Both the position numbers and the translations under genes were made by a program. The notes under the pieces were generated by a model. It did no database searches and was not told where the DNA came from. It worked only from the letters and a program-made list of their open reading frames with translations. From Schlesneria sp. DSM 10557 (GTDB lineage Bacteria; Planctomycetota; Planctomycetia; Planctomycetales; Planctomycetaceae), in contig NZ_CP124747.1 in NCBI RefSeq assembly GCF_041860085.1, forward strand, positions 4,030,001 to 4,094,000: DNA of 64,000 bases. The letters are read 5' to 3'. Within the stretch, counting starts at the first letter, position 1, and each line of letters starts with the position of its first letter. Below are positions 2,146 through 20,642 of this stretch, piece by piece.

Positions 2146-4382
2146 TAGCATGTGCTTGCCCACTTGAGGTCTCGCTGAAGCAGGTGAGCCTGATTGTTGG
2201 ATGGGTCGATGCAGGCCAGCGTGACCCATCCATTACCGAAGAGTGTCTTCAGGACATCCTGCGTCTGAATGGCCTGATCCAGCATCGCGCGAGATGCGTA
2301 GACGACGGTCAGCAGTCGCAGGGGTTCGTGGTATGGCTCGCCGTCGGCGGCATAGACCGATTGCAGCGGCAGCCCGTGCATCAGGTCACTGGCGTTACCT
2401 TGCATTACGCCGAGTTTTCCAGTGACGTTTTGCGTAACCTTGCTTCCACCACCGTAGGCGACGTTGTCCAGCGTCGAGAACAGATACTGGCTGTTGATCC
2501 ATTGCGCTACCACCATGGGTGCGGTCAGGATGCTGGTCAGGAACTTGCCAGTCGTGTCGGTCTTCCAGTCGTAGGAGTGGAGAAAACAGCGGCCTTCGAG
2601 GTTGACGGATTTCGTCAGTCCCCTTGGGCCGACGATGAAAGCGGCGTTTCGCGCCAGGCCCCATTCTGGCCGCACTTCCGCCCAGTCACAGCTCCGCCGC
2701 TGGGTCTCCTGTACAGCCTTATCGTCCTGCAACATGTGCAGGCCGAAGGTCGCCGTGCGGGCTTTCGCATTCGCGATTCTGGCCTTGGAAAGATCTCTTC
2801 GAAGGCTGTTCATCATTCCTTGCTGCTGCTCTGACATGCCGCGCGGCTCGTAGAGTTCGACATGATCCGTGGTCGTATCGTGTTCGGCAGCCACGAACAA
2901 CGTATCGGACGGTATTGCGAGTCCCCGATCCGAAAGGATGGAACGCACTGGTAGACTGTTCAAGATCGCAGCAAGGATACGGGCGTTGCCACCGCCATGA
3001 TTGCCACCACAGGCACCGCAATCCAGTGCGGAAGCGTAGGCATTATTGCTTGTGCTGCTACCATGTCCGCAGAGAACCACCAAAGGTGCCAGGTTCTCAG
3101 TCAGGCCCATCATCCGCAGCGCGGATTCTCCGAAATCGGCCTGCTCGGAAAGTTCAATACTTTGCAGCGAGGGCTCGCTCGGAATCGGTGGCATGACGGT
3201 TACCTGGGTCGTTTCCGCCCATCCTGAGATGAGCGACGGCGCAAAGGTCCGCCCCAGCATCTGCATTCCGAGCCAAGGCCCCACCATTTCGACAAGCGCG
3301 AAGGGTGTCGCGAAGTTATACTTCAGCCATTGGTAGATGGATTTTGGCATTCTCAGCAATAACCGTCCCTGGTCGTGACGCCGGACGCAGGATGCATCGG
3401 AATCAACCGCATGGTCACAGACCAGATGTCGCGGTTTGAGCAGGACCGGACACGAATCATGCGGTTGGTCGTCATCGAGCCCCTTCACCTGGACAGGCAC
3501 GCCAAAAAATCCGGCAAATCCAAGAGTGTCATAGTTCCCTTGCGCTTCCAGCGCTCGCCGAAACGGCTCGGATCGCACGTCGATGCAGAATACCAACTGG
3601 ACATCGGCCCGCGATGATTGAGGTGAGGCGACAGCCGCCGACTGCTCCAGCAACTTATTGAGCAGTCCCTTGCGGAACTGTGATTCCCTGTCGGGCAGTT
3701 CTGACAGGAATGCAGGCGGCGGCGTATTGGCCGATTCCGAAAGGCTGGCCTCTGGCCACAGCAGGCGAGTGAGAACCAGACGCACTGCGACATAGTCCAC
3801 CATAGTCGCCGGTCGTTTGGCTTGTTCTGCGGGACTTTGCCAGTTTTCTTTCCATTTCACGTAGCCCGACCAGCCCGGCAACGCCGCAAGTGCCTGCCGA
3901 ATAAATTCTTCTTTCTGGTCCTCGATAATCTCCATTTGGTCGAGACATGCGACGATCGCATCTTCTGGTTTATCCGGCAATGCTGCCAGCACGATGTTGT
4001 CAGCGTGAGACCGGTTCAGCCTTGCGTCGTACAGCGCAAGGTTTGCGAACGCCCGGTAAAGACCACCTTCGCGTCCCGGCATACCGATCGTCGATTGACC
4101 TTCGTCAAAGTACACGGAACACCATTTGATCAATTCCCTGTTGACCGCTTCGCGCCCGGTGCTGGCATCGCTGATTGCCGCGCGTTGCCGTTCCACTTCG
4201 AGTACTGCCAGCTCGAAAGGCAGATGTTCGAGGCCCTGCAAGGGGTTGACGGCGATGAAGGTCTTGAGCGGCCAGACCGGGGCGACAATATTTGCGGCGC
4301 TCGCAACCAATTCTTTAATCGAAATCATTTCGATGGAGATGACAGGGGTCTTTCGTTTCTGAGACCTGTTGACAACGTTCAT
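2145..4382 (-). CDS. dabA: DabA, inorganic carbon transporter subunit (DUF2309 / UPF0753)
   Basis: 745 residues, a normal size for DabA, which with DabB forms an energy-coupled CO2/bicarbonate uptake complex. DabA is a beta-carbonic-anhydrase-like zinc protein bound to the membrane subunit. Expected zinc-site residues are present: a Cys and Asp in FCIDVRSEPFRRALE (about residues 267-269), a His in LCGHGSS (about 440) and a Cys in LDCGACGGNHGG (about 457). The N-terminal segment VAPVWPLKTFIAVNPLQGLE is also typical. An AGGAG ribosome site lies in the 11-base gap after dabB, so the two are co-transcribed. The stop codon overlaps the DUF6671 start. In heterotrophs such systems supply bicarbonate for biosynthesis at low CO2; that role here is inferred. 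Confidence 0.93.
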   Translation of the reverse strand: MNVVNRSQKRKTPVISIEMISIKELVASAANIVAPVWPLKTFIAVNPLQGLEHLPFELAVLEVERQRAAISDASTGREAVNRELIKWCSVYFDEGQSTIGMPGREGGLYRAFANLALYDARLNRSHADNIVLAALPDKPEDAIVACLDQMEIIEDQKEEFIRQALAALPGWSGYVKWKENWQSPAEQAKRPATMVDYVAVRLVLTRLLWPEASLSESANTPPPAFLSELPDRESQFRKGLLNKLLEQSAAVASPQSSRADVQLVFCIDVRSEPFRRALEAQGNYDTLGFAGFFGVPVQVKGLDDDQPHDSCPVLLKPRHLVCDHAVDSDASCVRRHDQGRLLLRMPKSIYQWLKYNFATPFALVEMVGPWLGMQMLGRTFAPSLISGWAETTQVTVMPPIPSEPSLQSIELSEQADFGESALRMMGLTENLAPLVVLCGHGSSTSNNAYASALDCGACGGNHGGGNARILAAILNSLPVRSILSDRGLAIPSDTLFVAAEHDTTTDHVELYEPRGMSEQQQGMMNSLRRDLSKARIANAKARTATFGLHMLQDDKAVQETQRRSCDWAEVRPEWGLARNAAFIVGPRGLTKSVNLEGRCFLHSYDWKTDTTGKFLTSILTAPMVVAQWINSQYLFSTLDNVAYGGGSKVTQNVTGKLGVMQGNASDLMHGLPLQSVYAADGEPYHEPLRLLTVVYASRAMLDQAIQTQDVLKTLFGNGWVTLACIDPSNNQAHLLQRDLKWASTC

Positions 4383-4393
4383 AGACTCTCCTT

Positions 4394-5740
4394 TCAGGAT
4401 TGGTAGGCGGTTCGGGATGAGGTAACGGTCTGTGGGTGGGGCTGGCTGGCGTTCAGTGCTTTCATATACAGCCTCTTCCAGGTGGCTCGGGACTGAAGCC
4501 TGGCTGGGAGGTTAAGAATCATGGCCATCCACAGCACGACGATCGTGGCAATGCCTGCGAAGTAGACGGCATCCATCGGCTGTGGCTGAATGGTGTGAAG
4601 CGAATTGAGGGCAGTTTCCACCAAACGGATACTGAGGCCGTACATCCCACCTGCTCCAGCCCCAACCAGGAAGGTGCCGAGCACACGAGAGACCGCCAGC
4701 GATTCGCCAAGCAAACCGACAGCCAGTTGCGTGGCGGCCATGAAGGCCAGAGCAATCATCAGGCTTGAGGTGTCGACGAAGCGGAGGTCAGCCCCGCTCG
4801 TGAGGGTGAACGCGAAGGCCCCACAAAGACCCGCCGGGCAGGCCATCAGAATCCGAGCGAAAGAGGGTTCTGTCGCGATGCCTGCGCGCTTTTCCTGCAC
4901 CACCGAACCCGCGCTGAGGAAGAGATAGGCCTTAAAGAGGCCGTGCCAGCAGAGATGCGAAATCGCCGGTGCGAAGAGCCCCATTCCACACTGCAGAAGC
5001 ATAAACCCCATCTGCCCCATCGTGGAACAAGCCAGCATTCGCTTGATGTCAGTCTGGAGTAGCTTCCAGAAGGTACCGATTACCGCCGTGATGAGGCCGA
5101 CAAGGAATAACCCATGCAGAATTACAGACTGTGTCGCAAAGAGAGGCGCGAAGCGAACCAGGAGGAATCCGCCCCCGTTGACAAGGCCCGCGTGCATCAG
5201 GGCGGAGACAGGCGTTGGAGAGTTCAGTGACGAAGTCAGCCAGCGATGAAAGGGCCAGGCGGCGGATTGGGTCAGTGCGGCAATCGCAATCAGGATCAGA
5301 GCCACACGATGCATCGTTGTCCATTCATCAGTGGCCTGAACGATGCTGGCGATGGAAGCGGTCCCTGCGTTTTCCGCCAACAGCCAGAAAGCCACGCCCA
5401 GAACCACGGACCCAAAGCCAAATGTCTTGAGGGCCAGCAGGCCAGAATTTCGGGCGGCACGCCAGTGATCCTTGTGAATCATGAGCCTGACCAGCAGCAA
5501 GTTGCTCATTGCCCAACCCGCAAGCAGCACCAAGAGGTGGTCAGCGAAGACGATCGCCATCACGCTTGTGGCAAGCAGCAAGACATCGCGTCGATGCCGG
5601 CGCTGGTTTTTGTCACCGGCCAGATAGCGACTCGAGTAAGCGAGCACATTGATGACGACGAACAGGATCAACCCCGCCATCACCCAAGACAGGCTGTCAG
5701 GCCGGAAGAGCTCAAAATGATCAAACTGAAACAAGGGCAT
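4394..5740 (-). CDS. dabB: DabB, membrane proton-conducting subunit (NADH dehydrogenase / Mrp antiporter family)
   Basis: 448 residues, almost entirely hydrophobic helices. It belongs to the proton_antipo_M family shared with NuoL and MrpA. Recognisable family segments are QSAAWPFHRWLTSSLNSPTP followed by VSALMHAGLVNGGGFLLVRF, and a later ACSTMGQMGFMLLQCG stretch with a lysine-bearing DIKRM just before it. In Dab complexes this subunit couples cation movement to CO2 hydration by DabA. It is shorter than NuoL, as expected of DabB. An AAAGGAG ribosome site lies 7 bases before the ATG. It is the first gene of the operon, divergent from the LysR gene. The call rests on the neighbouring dabA; alone it could be called an NADH dehydrogenase subunit. 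Confidence 0.9.
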   Translation of the reverse strand: MPLFQFDHFELFRPDSLSWVMAGLILFVVINVLAYSSRYLAGDKNQRRHRRDVLLLATSVMAIVFADHLLVLLAGWAMSNLLLVRLMIHKDHWRAARNSGLLALKTFGFGSVVLGVAFWLLAENAGTASIASIVQATDEWTTMHRVALILIAIAALTQSAAWPFHRWLTSSLNSPTPVSALMHAGLVNGGGFLLVRFAPLFATQSVILHGLFLVGLITAVIGTFWKLLQTDIKRMLACSTMGQMGFMLLQCGMGLFAPAISHLCWHGLFKAYLFLSAGSVVQEKRAGIATEPSFARILMACPAGLCGAFAFTLTSGADLRFVDTSSLMIALAFMAATQLAVGLLGESLAVSRVLGTFLVGAGAGGMYGLSIRLVETALNSLHTIQPQPMDAVYFAGIATIVVLWMAMILNLPARLQSRATWKRLYMKALNASQPHPQTVTSSRTAYQS

Positions 5741-15242: not shown

Positions 15243-15668
15243 GCTCAGTGACTCAGAGATTCTCAGAAACCAGACACTCCACTGAGGTTAACGATTTTTC
15301 GGGGATCTCCATAGAGGGACACGATCTACCGGCGAGCCACGCCCTCGACCAGTTCAAATTCCCTACTCCACCCATTTCTCGCAAGCGAGAGACAATGTGT
15401 CCTCTGCGCACAGGAACGTTGGCCAATTCGCCGTCTGCCGGGAAAGTTGGTTGAGAAGAGATGAAGGCCGGGACGGCAGGTCACCGAAATCAACCACAGC
15501 AGCAGTGACTTGATCGTCAGCGACTTGATCCGCTGGCTCCGAAGCTGACGTCAGGTCTCAGTGAGAGGTAGAATCAACAGCCTTTGCGCAAGAGTCGCAA
15601 CCTTCCAGCGGGACTGCTGCGAGGTCGCTAGTCGGGTTCGTCCATTTGGTGTTCGTTCGTGTCCAAGA
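15243..15668. other. Divergent intergenic region between exbD-like and cyclase genes
   Basis: Should contain the promoters of both flanking genes. I see no protein-like frame and no strong hairpin. The open frame of the cyclase extends back to a GTG at 15561, but those extra 36 residues are rich in Arg and Cys and do not look like part of the FHA domain. Confidence 0.4.
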
Positions 15669-17453
15669 GTGAAGATCGTGGTGCTCGAGCTTGTTGCACA
15701 GGGTTCAGAGACGGAGCAGCACTGGCGGAAACGGCTGGAGCCGGGTCAGCGTTACTGCATCGGTCGCCATCCCGAGTGTGAATTGAGCGTCAAATGGGAC
15801 CCGCAAATCTCGCGGCAGCATGTCCAGATTGATGTGCATCCTGACCATCTTCAGCTTTCACGCGTCGAAACGGCCAGAAATCCGCTGTTTTTCGCGGGGG
15901 AAGCGGTAGGAACCTGTCGCGTCGAAGTCGGTCAACACTTCGTGGTCGGTTCGACCTCGTTCCATGTCACACAACCTGAAACCGAAGTGGGGATCGTCGC
16001 AGCACCGTTCGAAGAAGTGGCATTCAAACGGGCGGAGCTGCGGAAAATCCGCTACCAGGACCCGGAAAACCGGATCGAGGTCTTAACTCATCTCCCAGAA
16101 GTGATCTCGGGTGCTCGCGACGATAGCGAGCTGTACTACCGCCTGGCGAACCTGCTGCTGAAGGGGGTGGTCCATGCAGAAGCGGTCGCGATCGTAACAA
16201 CTTCGGGGACAGAAGAAGTGCAGATGCTGCACTGGGATCGGCGACACGAAACCGCGGGCCCGTTTCGTCCCAGTCGTCGTCTGGTAACGGAGGCGATTGA
16301 GCGGCGTCAGTCGAGCGTGCTGCACATCTGGGAAACGGATTCGCCTGTCCCCAGCGACAAGACGCTGACGCAGGAATTCGACTGGGCCTATTGCACACCG
16401 GTACCGGGACTCGCCATGGAACCGGCAGGACTATATGTCGCCGGTCGGATGGGAAAGACCTTCGTTCCCGGAACGACGCTGTCGGACGCCCTGCAACTGG
16501 AGGCAGATGTCAAATTCACCGAGCTCGTGGCCGAGATCATCAGTTCGGTCATTCGTGCCCGACGGCTGGAACGGCAGAAGGCGGGACTGCGGCAGTTCTT
16601 CGCCCCCCCGATTCTGGCGGCACTGGGGGACGAACTGGATACGACGCTGCTGGAACCCAGCGAGTGCGATGTCACGGTGATGTTTTGCGACCTCCGGGGG
16701 TTCAGTCAGCGACTGGAGAACGAAGCGGGCGACCTGATTGGCTTGCTGGAACGAGTCAGCCGGGCTCTGGGTGTGATGACTCATCACATTCTCGAGAATG
16801 GGGGTGTCACCGGGGACTTTCAGGGTGACGCCGCACTGGGATTCTGGGGTTGGCCGTTCCCTTCGCCGGACGCGGCCGTTCATGCGTGCCGCGCTGCACT
16901 GGGAATTCGGGCCGCTTTCGCCAAAGCGGCCGCAACCCGGAATCATCCCCTCGCCGACTTTGAAATGGGAATCGGGATCGCTCACGGCCGGGCAGTCGCA
17001 GGCAAGATTGGAACGGCAGAGCAGGTCAAGGTGACCGTGTTCGGCCCCGTCGTGAATCTGGCAAGTCGATTGGAGTCGATGACCAAACAGTTACGCGTCC
17101 CGATTCTGCTGGATGAGGGAGCGGCAAAAATGGTGCGAGATCGCCTGAAGCCGACTGAAGGAAGGCTGCGGCGGCTGGCTCAGATTCTGCCTTACGGGAT
17201 GGAGACACCGGTGACCGTCAGTGAACTATTGCCACCGGTGAGCGACTTCCCGGAACTGACGGACGCGCACCTGGAGAGCTACGAGGCCGGAGTCGCGGGT
17301 TTCATTGCCGGAAACTGGGACGAAGCCTATCGACACCTGCACGCTATGCCGGCGAGCGATCGTGCACAGGATTTTCTGATGCAGCAGATCGTGCTCAACA
17401 ATCGCACGGCACCTCGAAACTGGGATGGAATCGTACGACTTCCCAGTAAGTGA
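15669..17453 (+). CDS. FHA domain - GAF-like domain - class III adenylate/guanylate cyclase
   Basis: About 594 residues from the GTG at 15669. Residues 1-110 are an FHA domain that binds phosphothreonine (YCIGRHPECELSV, then ISRQHVQI). A GAF-like sensory region follows (about 150-320, YYRLANLLLKGVVHAEAVAI). The C-terminal class III cyclase domain has the first metal Asp in VTVMFCDLRGFSQRL, the second in GDFQGDAALGFWG, and the later MGIGIAHG and VFGPVVNLASRLESMTKQL segments. It therefore probably makes cyclic AMP or GMP in response to a phosphorylated partner, such as a Ser/Thr kinase target. I chose 15669 because the FHA strand starts there; a GTG at 15561 is also open. It ends 68 bases before the retron RNA on the same strand. 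Confidence 0.88.
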   Translation: MKIVVLELVAQGSETEQHWRKRLEPGQRYCIGRHPECELSVKWDPQISRQHVQIDVHPDHLQLSRVETARNPLFFAGEAVGTCRVEVGQHFVVGSTSFHVTQPETEVGIVAAPFEEVAFKRAELRKIRYQDPENRIEVLTHLPEVISGARDDSELYYRLANLLLKGVVHAEAVAIVTTSGTEEVQMLHWDRRHETAGPFRPSRRLVTEAIERRQSSVLHIWETDSPVPSDKTLTQEFDWAYCTPVPGLAMEPAGLYVAGRMGKTFVPGTTLSDALQLEADVKFTELVAEIISSVIRARRLERQKAGLRQFFAPPILAALGDELDTTLLEPSECDVTVMFCDLRGFSQRLENEAGDLIGLLERVSRALGVMTHHILENGGVTGDFQGDAALGFWGWPFPSPDAAVHACRAALGIRAAFAKAAATRNHPLADFEMGIGIAHGRAVAGKIGTAEQVKVTVFGPVVNLASRLESMTKQLRVPILLDEGAAKMVRDRLKPTEGRLRRLAQILPYGMETPVTVSELLPPVSDFPELTDAHLESYEAGVAGFIAGNWDEAYRHLHAMPASDRAQDFLMQQIVLNNRTAPRNWDGIVRLPSK

Positions 17454-17520
17454 TCTCGACCGACCAGATGATTGGTCGTTAAACATTGACCGGTTTAGCC
17501 AGTCGGCTAGGATATCGGTT

Positions 17521-17697
17521 CTGGCCTGTGGGTCGCACAAGTTAAGTTTGGCCTTCCCTACCGGGATGAGTCAGACGCTGCGGGGTTACCCCGCGGTCGC
17601 AACAATGTTCCACATTCGAGCTGTGAAGAGTCGGCATCGGCAGTCTTAGCCGCAGCGACTCTTCGCCACGGGATCGGTTGTGCGGCCCGCAGGTCAG
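17521..17697 (+). ncRNA. Predicted retron non-coding RNA (msr-msd)
   Basis: The segment is closed by two arms, 17521-17540 and 17678-17697, that pair over all 20 positions (17 Watson-Crick pairs and three G-U pairs), like retron a1/a2. Inside, in order: a small hairpin at 17555-17566 (TCCC/GGGA), a strong hairpin at 17578-17596 (8 pairs, TTA loop), and a long hairpin at 17625-17664 with a perfect 9-base outer stem GAAGAGTCG/CGACTCTTC and an inner CGGC/GCCG stem. The first two would be msr stems and the third the msd stem. The first base after the a1 arm, 17541, is a G, where retrons place the branching guanosine. The reverse transcriptase gene follows 113 bases after the second arm on the same strand. 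The fold was made by eye. Confidence 0.78.
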
Positions 17698-17810
17698 TAA
17701 TGTTGCTTCGCAGGCAGTGGCCATACCCCGTTGCGTGCGGCGAACGGCAGGAAAGTTCAGCCAGTCAGGGTCGATTGGTTGGCGGTAACGGCTGCTTGGG
17801 AAATCGCTAC

Positions 17811-19190
17811 ATGGGCTTATTCAGTTGGCTGCTACAATGGTTTCGACGACGCCCCGAGCCTTCACCCTCCCAGCTCCAACCTTCGCAGAGTTTACCCGCC
17901 TCGGATTTCAGCGCGACTCAAATCGCTGTTTCCGACAATTGTCAGCAAAAGAGTCTTTCGGCCGCTGCGGTCGTGACGGAAGAACCTCGGCCTCGGAAGC
18001 GGTTGCCAAAATCGGCTCGCATTCGCCTGACACCTAATCGAAGAATCGTCGTCACAGCAGCGGAACGTCGAGCGATTCCCTTCATCGAAGCGAGCGGCGT
18101 TCCCCCTTACCGGTATGCTCGTTACGGGTCGCGAACGGATCACTATCTCGACCTCAGCCAGGACGGCAGCGACGAACGGCTGCAGATTTTTGGGCTGCCT
18201 GTCTTTCACACTCCTGAACAACTGGCCGAATGGATTGGAATTCCCCTCAACCGGGTTGCGTGGCTCATTCATCGCTTTTCCAATGGTCGACCTGAATCCC
18301 AGGCAGCCGCTCACTATCACTTCCACTGGGTCAAAAAACGGGCGGGTGGCTGGCGGCTGATTGAATCACCGAAGGGCTTGCTGAAGCAAGTACAGACAAA
18401 GATCCTGCATGAGCTTCTCGATCACGTCCCCGCCCATGCCAACTCACATGGCTTTACGAAGTCCCGTTCGATTCTGACGAACGCTCGTCCACATACCGGC
18501 CAGGCCGTGGTCCTGAAGTTCGATCTGTCCAACTTCTACACCACGGTCAGCTTCGCCCGCGTCGTGGCCATCTTCCGCAGCCTTGGCTATTCGCGTGAAG
18601 TGGCAATCTGGCTTGGCTCACTCGTGACGTCGGCCGTCCCGGGCAATTTGAAGTTTCAGGAACAAGGACCGTACGCGCTGGTACCTTACCTGCGCCGCCA
18701 CCTCCCTCAGGGTGCCCCCACATCGCCGGCTCTCGCCAACCTTTCCGCATTTGGTCTCGACATTCGGCTGTCGGGCCTGGCCAAGTCGTACGGAGCAAAC
18801 TACACCCGCTACGCGGACGACCTGACGTTCTCGGGCCCGAAAGAGTTCAACTTCGCGCTTTCGACGATCATCCCGCTTGTCCAGCAGATTGTGCGGCAGG
18901 AACGGTTCCAGACGAATGCGAAGAAGCGGCAGATTCTCAGGTCTCACCAGCGGCAAACCGTAGCCGGGGTCGTCGTCAATCAGCGACCTAACGTCGCCCG
19001 ATGCGACTTCGATCAACTCAAGGCGATTTTGACTAACTGCGTCCGACTTGGCCCATCAACGCAGAACCGCGTCGGAGCCACTGACTTTTATCAGCACCTT
19101 CGCGGACGTATCGCCCACATTCAGATGCTGAATCCGCTACGGGGCGAACGACTCACGCAGTTATTCCTGGCGATCGATTGGACCAGGTAA
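17811..19190 (+). CDS. Retron-type reverse transcriptase
   Basis: About 459 residues. The RT domain spans roughly 140-450: HGFTKSRSILTNARPHTGQ, KFDLSNFYTTV with the first catalytic Asp (about 237), LPQGAPTSPALANL, NYTRYADDLTFSG with the YADD catalytic pair (334-337), and VAGVVVNQRPNVAR, the place of the retron VTG motif. These match retron RTs better than group II intron or DGR enzymes: no maturase or HNH domain is present. It would make a branched RNA-DNA hybrid (msDNA) from the RNA just upstream. The first 100 residues are an extension starting MGLFSWLLQWFRRR, hydrophobic then basic and proline-rich; some myxobacterial retron RTs also have long N-termini. I prefer the ATG at 17811; the frame is open back to 17700 but that part overlaps the RNA region. 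No separate effector gene is visible. Confidence 0.9.
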   Translation: MGLFSWLLQWFRRRPEPSPSQLQPSQSLPASDFSATQIAVSDNCQQKSLSAAAVVTEEPRPRKRLPKSARIRLTPNRRIVVTAAERRAIPFIEASGVPPYRYARYGSRTDHYLDLSQDGSDERLQIFGLPVFHTPEQLAEWIGIPLNRVAWLIHRFSNGRPESQAAAHYHFHWVKKRAGGWRLIESPKGLLKQVQTKILHELLDHVPAHANSHGFTKSRSILTNARPHTGQAVVLKFDLSNFYTTVSFARVVAIFRSLGYSREVAIWLGSLVTSAVPGNLKFQEQGPYALVPYLRRHLPQGAPTSPALANLSAFGLDIRLSGLAKSYGANYTRYADDLTFSGPKEFNFALSTIIPLVQQIVRQERFQTNAKKRQILRSHQRQTVAGVVVNQRPNVARCDFDQLKAILTNCVRLGPSTQNRVGATDFYQHLRGRIAHIQMLNPLRGERLTQLFLAIDWTR

Positions 19191-19208
19191 GTCACGCAAC
19201 GCGATCAC

Positions 19209-19232
19209 CGTTCCCGGGTCAATCCGGGAGCG
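19209..19232. terminator. Hairpin between the convergent RT and hslU genes
   Basis: A 9-base stem CGTTCCCGG/CCGGGAGCG with a GTCAAT loop sits in the 87-base gap between the ends of the RT gene (plus) and hslU (minus). There is no T-run. Its position suggests a two-way transcription end. Confidence 0.55.
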
Positions 19233-19277
19233 GCGCACGGTTCATTCCTTCGACCGGGTACGTGGCGGTGTCTCGTG

Positions 19278-20642
19278 TTAGAGGATGAACTTGCTCAGGT
19301 CTTCGTCCTGACTGATCTGTTCCAATTGCTTCGCGACAAAATCACGATCAATGGAAATTTGCGTTCCCTGGGAATCAGGCCCCTGGAAGCTGATTTCTTC
19401 CAGAAGGCGTTCCATGATGGTGTGCAGGCGCCGGGCACCGATGTTCTGGGTTGATTGATTCACCCGCCACGCAATTTCGGCGATCTCGGCCAATCCATCT
19501 GCGGTAAACGAAACATGGATACCGTCTACCTCAAGTAACTGCTGGTACTGGCGGGTAACCGAAGCAGAGGGTTCCGTCAAAATTCTCAGGAAGTCTGACT
19601 TGGTCAGTTCATCGAGTTCGACGCGAATCGGAAACCGGCCCTGCAGTTCGGGCATCAGGTCGGCAGGCCGGGACGAATGGAACGCCCCTGCGGCGATGAA
19701 CAGAATGTGATCCGTCTTAAGAGCGCCATACCGTGTATTGACGGTGGCACCTTCCACGATAGGAAGCAAATCCCGCTGGACCCCCTGCCGGCTGACATCG
19801 GTCCCACTCTGCCCCCCTTCGCTGGAGGTACAGATCTTGTCAATCTCGTCGAGGAAGACAATGCCGCTCTGTTCTGCCAGTCTGAGGGCTTCGTCATGGA
19901 TGGCATCTTTATCCAGCAGCAACTCGGTTTCCTGCTCCATCAGAAGGCGGCGTGCTTCCACGACCGTCACCTTTCGATTCTTCGACTGTCGCGGCATCAC
20001 CCGTTCGAACAGTTGCTGGAAATCGACATCCATCTGCTCGAGCCCCATGTTGGAAAACATCTGGACCGGAGCCTTGCGCTGTGGCACTGATAACTCAACC
20101 TGGCGTTCATCCAAGGTCCCGGCATTCAGCATCTGGCGAAATTTTTCTCGCGTCCGTTCATGCCGAGCCGCATGCTCGTCAGCCGACACTGACTCTTTTT
20201 CATCATCTCGGGGCAGAGGCCGCGGTTCATGAGGAACAAGCAGATCGAGCAACCGTTCTTCGACATTCTTACTGGCTTCGTTTTCGACCTCGCCCCGACG
20301 GCGTACCTTCACCAAGTTGATCGACGCGTCGACAAGTTCACGGATCATGCTTTCGACATCACGACCGACGTAGCCGACTTCCGTGAAGCGGGTCGCTTCG
20401 ACTTTGACGAAAGGAGAGCCGATCAATGTGGCCAGGCGACGCGTGATTTCGGTTTTTCCGACACCTGTCGGACCAATCATGATGATGTTCTTCGGCGTAA
20501 TCTCGCGCCGGATTTCGTCCGGGAGCTGCTGCCAGCGCCAGCGATTGCGTAACGCAATGGCCACGGACCGCTTGGCTTTATCCTGCCCGACAATGTGCTG
20601 GTCCAACTCGGCAACGATCTGCCGTGGTGTCATGTCTCGCAT
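19278..20642 (-). CDS. hslU: HslU, ATPase subunit of the HslUV (ClpYQ) protease
   Basis: 454 residues, the usual HslU size. It opens MTPRQIVAELDQHIVGQDKA, has Walker A GPTGVGKT (about 56-63) and Walker B IVFLDEIDKI (about 270), an intermediate domain in between rich in charged residues, and the conserved C-terminal tail DLSKFIL that activates HslV. HslU is a hexameric AAA+ unfoldase that feeds proteins to the HslV chamber in the cytoplasm. It follows hslV on the same strand with a 123-base gap. The likely start is the first ATG or the one three codons later. Confidence 0.96.
   Translation of the reverse strand: MRDMTPRQIVAELDQHIVGQDKAKRSVAIALRNRWRWQQLPDEIRREITPKNIIMIGPTGVGKTEITRRLATLIGSPFVKVEATRFTEVGYVGRDVESMIRELVDASINLVKVRRRGEVENEASKNVEERLLDLLVPHEPRPLPRDDEKESVSADEHAARHERTREKFRQMLNAGTLDERQVELSVPQRKAPVQMFSNMGLEQMDVDFQQLFERVMPRQSKNRKVTVVEARRLLMEQETELLLDKDAIHDEALRLAEQSGIVFLDEIDKICTSSEGGQSGTDVSRQGVQRDLLPIVEGATVNTRYGALKTDHILFIAAGAFHSSRPADLMPELQGRFPIRVELDELTKSDFLRILTEPSASVTRQYQQLLEVDGIHVSFTADGLAEIAEIAWRVNQSTQNIGARRLHTIMERLLEEISFQGPDSQGTQISIDRDFVAKQLEQISQDEDLSKFIL

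Follow-up and report, generated by a model that had tools for sequence, protein, structure and literature searches.

At present, retrons are mostly regarded as effector-carrying cassettes for phage defence. The best solved relative of the reverse transcriptase (RT) analyzed here is that of retron Ec86 (Eco1; PDB 7v9x and 7v9u), which matches it at E 4e-28 with 28-29% identity and a TM-score of 0.81-0.83 on the target. The Ec86 complex was solved with its effector, as the title of 7v9x indicates, and the Ec86 chain of about 320-330 amino acids lacks the N-terminal helix and linker of the present RT. The Rfam family RF00170 (Retron msr RNA) describes the same functional kind of RNA as the one reported here; it finds an Ec78/St85-type locus (L198) at 80 bits but misses our RNA. 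Two PADLOC models, RT_other and RT_outgroup, score best with our RT but cover the RT only, and their type names reportedly go back to Mestre et al. 2020. We found neither this RNA, nor a core inherited distribution, nor an N-terminal helix followed by a linker described for these types. A planctomycete retron and this RNA were likewise absent from the titles and abstract openings among the literature matches listed; the tables of Mestre 2020 may include the RTs.

We know of no clear effector for the myxobacterial retrons (Mx162 type). These retrons are vertically inherited according to PMC8867640, which cites Rice and Lampson 1995; they resemble the planctomycete retron in this respect but belong to a different phylum. 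Other retrons without an obvious effector are described in PMC12548924 (Bth1) and PMC8867640.

The window, a 64,000-nucleotide stretch of the 7.07-Mb genome of Schlesneria sp. DSM 10557, contains a structured RNA followed by an RT gene (Table 1). Our analysis leads us to conclude that this locus is a real retron. Its kind is known and its variant is new: the retron is core and inherited, no linked effector was found, and it has once been naturally split. An earlier reading of the DNA made without database searches, which we refer to as the sequence-only reading, anticipated neither the near-universal inheritance nor the lack of an effector, and the N-terminal helix, promoter and split form are likewise additions to it.

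Table 1. Features of the retron locus and of one recurrent neighbor; positions are those of the window unless a genome and contig are given
Feature	Position	Strand	Remarks
Sigma-70-like promoter	17486-17513	+	TTGACC 17486-17491, 16-nt spacer, TAGGAT 17508-17513
a1 arm of closing helix	17521-17540	+	Partner is 17678-17697
Predicted branching guanosine	17541	+	First base past a1; G in 71/71 sequences
msr hairpin 1	17546-17576	+	Variable sequence, compensated within genus
msr hairpin 2	17577-17597	+	GGGG-N-UACCCC; invariant columns in 71-sequence alignment
Predicted msd hairpin	about 17623-17666	+	Stretch likely copied into DNA
Conserved linker before a2	17667-17677	+	Several invariant or near-invariant columns
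a2 arm of closing helix	17678-17697	+	Partner is 17521-17540
a1/a2 helix, double compensatory change			14/19 counted pairs, 71 sequences; this helix partly guided locus choice
Retron reverse transcriptase, 459 aa	17811-19190	+	Motifs, profiles, structure, tree
N-terminal hydrophobic helix, residues 2-11, putative membrane anchor	17814-17843	+	AF2, counts over N-termini
Disordered linker from helix to RT domain, residues 17-52	17859-17966	+	pLDDT under 50
NAxxH motif (region X)	18480-18494	+	N 80/81, H 81/81 orthologues
LPQGAP motif	18702-18719	+	Q and G 81/81
YADD catalytic box	18810-18821	+	81/81 orthologues, 20/20 distant RTs
VAG form of VTG (region Y)	18960-18968	+	G 81/81; middle T 62/81, A 16/81
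~240-aa membrane protein	G044:C102:49645-50376 (neighbor of L054); G000:C1:5152811-5153455		No Pfam match

Fold and covariation of the retron RNA

The RNA, which spans positions 17519-17699, folds as the sequence-only reading had described. Its 20-base closing helix pairs at 20/20 positions and includes three G-U pairs (17524-17694, 17529-17689, and 17533-17685). The two msr-like hairpins and the single long msd-like hairpin lie inside this helix, as that reading had stated, and the guanosine that it had located directly after the helix is invariant among the aligned relatives. Folding of 17515-17703 yields a minimum free energy of -98 kcal/mol (z -6.8), and none of 200 shuffles was as low. 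By analogy with known retrons, G17541 is predicted to serve as the branching, or priming, guanosine; PMC6868368 assigns the priming G of known retrons to an AGC. The conserved linker that precedes a2 is presumed to be the start of the template. By one scoring of inverted-repeat strength, the retron block ranks first of 106 600-nt blocks at 47.5 with others at 46.5 and 43. Inverted repeats of comparable strength thus exist elsewhere in the window, and the case rests on comparison with relatives rather than on a single fold.

For this comparison, we assembled 81 core loci (the window and 80 fetched loci, L040-L119) whose RTs are orthologues at a cut of 300 bits or more, together with 20 distant loci (L120-L139), including L130, an additional RT of the same family. 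An inverted-repeat scan in which a1 had to end in AA and a2 to begin with TT placed 71 of the 81 core loci in an alignment designated A1, in which the AA before G17541 is thus invariant by selection. Paired bases occupy 94.1% of cells in A1, compared with 80.5% in shuffles and less than 45% when the alignment is slid, but the pairing of helix 1 is inflated because this helix was used in picking loci. Double changes are found in 23 of 33 pairs, amounting to 330 double-change cells versus 94 in shuffles. Helices 2 and 3 of A1 played no part in locus selection, and helix 3, the msd hairpin, exhibits double changes in all six of its pairs.

An alignment of the whole structure within the genus (14 sequences) gave a similar picture: 94.3% of cells pair and 73 carry double changes versus 23, although the count of further pair types was matched by 20 of 500 shuffles. 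Double changes in this alignment affect 5 of 12 pairs of msr hairpin 1 (helix 2; 89.8% of cells paired) and 10 of 21 pairs of the msd hairpin (helix 6). The sequence-only reading had proposed selection on pairing and had named beforehand an absence of covariation in homologues as evidence against itself; compensatory change is instead strong, both in the 71 relatives and within the genus.

A model of the RNA (R1) added four loci (L056, L080, L082, and L099), which brings the RNA directly upstream of the RT to 75 of 81 core loci. Four of the remaining six (L059, L063, L097, and L113) have fewer than 100 bases before the RT or have lost the RT start at a contig end, and the other two (L073 and L074) belong to genus g16, which is discussed below. 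R1 detects 18 of the 20 distant loci at E under 1e-4. Antisense matches to R1 reach 42 bits, so weak R1 matches (24-47 bits) prove little by themselves; we rejected them as sole proof of homology elsewhere and relied on a reciprocal model, R2. The input of this model consisted of the RNAs of 19 distant loci plus that of Burkholderia, 20 in all, and none of the 71 A1 sequences. R2 finds the window RNA at 55 bits and matches 9 of the 11 core loci given to it; L073 has no RNA, and L105 was missed. Across 392 genomes of the phylum, R2 matches at least 25 (families f1, f5, and f41); this count is a minimum, since some genomes detected by R1, G006 and G092 among them, dropped out under strict filtering. 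Among plasmid loci, R2 finds Dietzia (44 bits) and none of the six other plasmid RT loci. Related RNAs are present in other planctomycete families, Burkholderia, and Dietzia. The deepest signature of the retron RNA is msr hairpin 2, a like hairpin being found in the other planctomycete families and Burkholderia. The same RNA architecture was observed upstream of plasmid RTs at L191:3502-3667 (Burkholderia pyrrocinia) and L192:2857-3018 (Dietzia).

The search with retron covariance models that the sequence-only reading had proposed did not recover the RNA. RF00170 misses the window RNA, and its sole match among nine related or comparison loci is the positive control L198, the relatives of the window being missed as well. 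A scan of 16800-19300 against Rfam at E up to 10 returned zero matches.

The promoter-like site of the window ends 5 nt before 17519. Of 74 loci, comprising the 71 of A1 and three moved RNAs of g16, 55 carry a TTGAC[CG]-16-TA[CG]GAT-like site whose -10 hexamer stops 4-7 nt short of the nominal a1 start. The mean promoter score of 8.18 exceeds the 5.73 of base-shuffled sequences (30 rounds, at most 5.89), a rough control because the shuffles keep base content only.

The reverse transcriptase and its N-terminus

The RT gene starts with ATG at 17811, 113 nt past the closing helix, and ends with a stop codon at 19188-19190. This start was chosen over that of the longest open reading frame (17700) because orthologues share an MGLF-form start. 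The distance of 113 bases, the YADD and LPQGAP boxes and the VAG motif had all been noted from the sequence and are present. The RT contains the motifs of retron RTs (YADD-type box, NAxxH, and VTG), the last of which is VAG in the window. The motif definitions are those of PMC6868368, where each occurs in 14 of 16 validated retrons. The N of NAxxH is retained in 8 and the H in all 20 of the distant RTs. In 13 pairs of relatives, dN/dS of the RT ranges from 0.04 to 0.19, with dS >1 in three of the pairs, which points to purifying selection on an enzyme whose catalytic motifs are intact.

PADLOC scores the window RT highest with RT_other (413 bits), RT_outgroup (391 bits), and RT_XIII (350 bits). 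RT_other reaches 509 bits with L122 from another planctomycete family, 478 bits with Burkholderia, and 494 bits with Dietzia. Applied to seven plasmid RTs, PADLOC returned types I-C, III-A (twice), V, and I-A, as well as RT_other for Burkholderia and Dietzia; I-C, I-A, and V are what we take to be the expected types of the plasmid retrons annotated Ec67, Ec78, and Se72, respectively. Matches to the NCBIfam retron families Ec67, TIR, and St85 (184, 181, and 175 bits) fall below the cut-offs of 450, 600, and 235, and NCBIfam alone would accordingly not call this RT a retron. A tree of 31 rows places the RT among retron RTs and separates it with 100/100 support from three group II-like RTs encoded by the source genome, its inner placement being unsure because of several long branches. 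The first 18 PDB hits in a Foldseek search are all retron RTs, and the AF2 model of the RT has a mean pLDDT of 89.6. Both tree and structure thus answer in favor of a retron the question of clade that the sequence-only reading had raised. The source genome encodes at least ten other group II-like RT open reading frames or pieces (L164-L170), several of which share both score and a 475-aa open frame and are thus near-identical copies.

At the N-terminus, AF2 predicts a helix at residues 2-11, with a mean pLDDT of 79 over residues 1-10. Among 77 N-termini (L053 and L095 being read from an inner Met), G2 is found in 58, L3 in 57, F4 in 43, and L7 in 48. A segment of transmembrane grade (mean hydropathy over 1.6) occurs in 3 of 81 RTs (L082, whose start codon was not identified, L105, and L112). 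The amphipathic moment, a weak test, falls below 0.05 against shuffles in 27 of 77 N-termini. Distant RTs carry a different N-terminal stretch, and no Pfam domain fused to the window RT was found. The modeled helix and flexible linker suggest that the RT is probably held at the membrane.

Distribution, inheritance and genomic neighbors

Of 170 family genomes, 106 have an RT match of 300 bits or more. By R1, 109 of the 170 contain the RNA, as do 87 of the 130 of high quality; 106 of the RNA matches score 60 bits or more, and the three weak ones (G015, G045, and G063; 29-42 bits) have RT matches of distant grade. The RNA is present in 104 of the 106 RT genomes. The two exceptions with RT only (G042 and G065) are explained by contig ends, as are the genomes with RNA only (G035 and G037). 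In 97 of the 104 genomes with both, the RNA lies directly upstream of the RT; the other seven have the RT at a contig end (G043, G059, G071, and G103) or the RNA elsewhere (G051, G052, and G053). A conserved RNA upstream of orthologous RTs, on which the sequence-only reading had staked its proposal, is thus the rule.

The retron pair occurs in 42 of the 58 genera of the family and is absent from 16 whole genera (53 genomes). Within the 42 positive genera, RT or RNA was found in 108 of 117 genomes; five of the nine lacking genomes are less than 90% complete, and G100, G101, G114, and G163 are not. In an RT tree of 101 rows, 13 of 14 multi-member genera form single branches, the exception being g5. 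Five retron-lacking rows of a MutL tree (25 rows) constitute one side of a fully supported branch with two placed elsewhere, and a tree of a neighboring membrane protein (68 rows) needs five changes. These comparisons indicate that the retron pair is near-universal in its clade and vertically inherited. In genus g47, one genome (L111, G099) has the retron and two congeners lack it, which may reflect transfer, loss, or a misbinned contig. Locus L143 (G061:C274:3931-4083 and 4250-4402, minus strand) has two tandem RNA copies upstream of one RT.

In all three species of genus g16, RNA and RT lie apart, which makes this a naturally split retron. The g16 RNA is situated between a sulfotransferase-family gene (Pfam on L140) and a gene of ~510 aa without Pfam match. 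The 8-14 kb fetched around these RNAs (L140-L142) contain zero RT matches, and the sole RT match of each g16 genome is on another contig. Conversely, the RNA was not found at the two g16 RT loci fetched (L073 and L074; that of G053 was not included). The moved RNAs score 100-112 bits with R1 and keep the overall fold, their msd stem differing with compensation, and a promoter-like site is present.

In the window, the retron is flanked by an FHA-cyclase gene on one side and, on the other, by an AAA+ gene and then a proteasome-like gene (Pfam); the latter two are named hslU and hslV from sequence. This site differs from the M50/membrane-protein locus described below. The gene directly upstream (15561-17453) encodes an FHA domain and a class III nucleotide cyclase with a PycC-like (Pycsar-cyclase) score of 52 bits. 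We sought this cyclase in 10 congeners and found it in nine, in all of which the RT is on another contig, so its PycC-like score does not make it an effector. No hslU match was present within 1.5 kb beyond the cyclase in any of the nine, and the edges of the moved unit are consequently unreadable at this would-be empty site.

Elsewhere in the family, the next gene downstream encodes a ~240-aa membrane protein without Pfam match in 46 of 101 genomes, representing 19 genera, and gene clustering with Pfam checks revealed an M50 protease at 24 loci (13 genera) and MutL at 13 loci (10 genera). The membrane protein, which has the conserved stretch MPDQELFAIIHPGP, occurs in 147 of 170 family genomes. 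It was rejected as a dedicated effector, being found in retron-lacking genomes and unlinked in the window genome, although it might be a partner all the same. M50 protease and MutL were rejected as dedicated partners on the ground that both occur at retron-lacking loci. In 7 of 12 loci from retron-lacking genomes (one of the 12, L162, is where a contig ends), the M50 and membrane-protein genes are adjacent and divergent, ~210-330 bp apart, with no RT between them, which identifies these as empty sites of the same retron locus. The search for a dedicated effector, adjoining or fused, found none: the three most recurrent neighbors, which constitute the dedicated-partner test (rarer families, in at most seven genera, lie outside it), also occur without the retron. 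No gene family recurs in more than 5 of the 20 distant loci. We consider it very likely that no effector is encoded in cis in this clade.

Mechanism and possible roles

By analogy with known retrons, the locus very likely makes msDNA. The RT would bind the msr and prime on the 2'-OH of G17541, start copying just upstream of a2, continue across the msd hairpin, and stop before the msr. The resulting branched RNA-DNA (msDNA), very roughly 65-80 nt in size, would remain attached to the RT, and the N-terminal helix and flexible linker may hold this RT-msDNA particle at the membrane. A retron with msDNA, a membrane-held RT, and most likely a standing role is, taken as a whole, very probably the best explanation of the locus. 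Because the pair is near-universal and vertical, lies among housekeeping genes, and has no dedicated neighbor that we could find, its role would most likely be a standing cellular or surveillance one, with a partner, if any, encoded elsewhere, and not that of a mobile defence cassette. Taken singly, the claim that this role differs from a classical toxin-guard cassette is one that we advance with reserve. It is tempting to speculate, more tentatively still, that this is a domesticated, membrane-tethered core retron. Its msDNA would then perform a standing task in the cell, such as that of a nucleic-acid sensor or scaffold held at the membrane, rather than take part in toxin-guard phage defence, and the pair would be needed enough to persist even where RNA and RT have come to occupy separate loci.

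It is quite possible, however, that this is an ordinary anti-phage retron whose effector lies elsewhere, or in which the N-terminal part of the RT acts on the membrane when the msDNA is disturbed. Several of the best-matching solved retrons, such as Eco2 and Eco8, are described as defence systems in PMC12405507 and PMC12887533, the PADLOC models are those of defence systems, and an N-terminal helix or transmembrane segment would fit a membrane-acting output. An ordinary defence retron fits less well with inheritance that is near-universal and vertical instead of sporadic and with neighbors that are largely housekeeping genes (M50 protease, MutL, the membrane protein and, at the window, the AAA+/proteasome-like pair). 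Moreover, the N-terminal part consists of a short helix and a disordered linker with no known effector domain.

The remaining explanations deny that the locus is a retron at all. Since it immediately precedes the RT in 97 of 104 genomes, the RNA might regulate the RT gene in cis as a leader instead of serving as a template. This is very unlikely given that in g16 both parts persist at separate loci, the RNA having a promoter-like site and structure of its own, and that the architecture is that of an msr-msd RNA. The window does contain other strong inverted repeats, but a palindromic mobile repeat or terminator that came to lie near the RT by chance can be practically dismissed: the RNA occurs at a single site in its own genome (the two R1 matches there are opposite strands of that site), covaries family-wide around an invariant internal hairpin, and accompanies the RT in 104 of 106 genomes. 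Hardly more credible is a group II intron fragment, or a DGR or DRT-type system, as suggested by the many group II-like RT open reading frames of the genome and by weak NCBIfam matches to group II, Drt2, and Drt3a. The group II match reaches 41 bits versus a 300-bit cut-off, and the Rfam scan of 16800-19300 (E up to 10) gave no match to an intron RNA. The tree separates the RT from the three group II-like RTs of its own genome, retron structures outrank those of group II, DRT, and DGR enzymes, and the NAxxH and VTG/VAG motifs are present.

An inherited retron for which no linked effector was found, and with a probable tether, offers a natural case for an msDNA role outside toxin guarding. The planctomycete retron also represents a conserved RNA family with a testable structure, and it predicts msDNA in cultured planctomycetes. 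The naturally split RNA and RT of g16 may be of practical use for retron tools that supply the RNA in trans. At one distant locus (L137:3974-4121), the RNA is not upstream of the local RT and lies on the opposite strand, possibly a second uncoupling.
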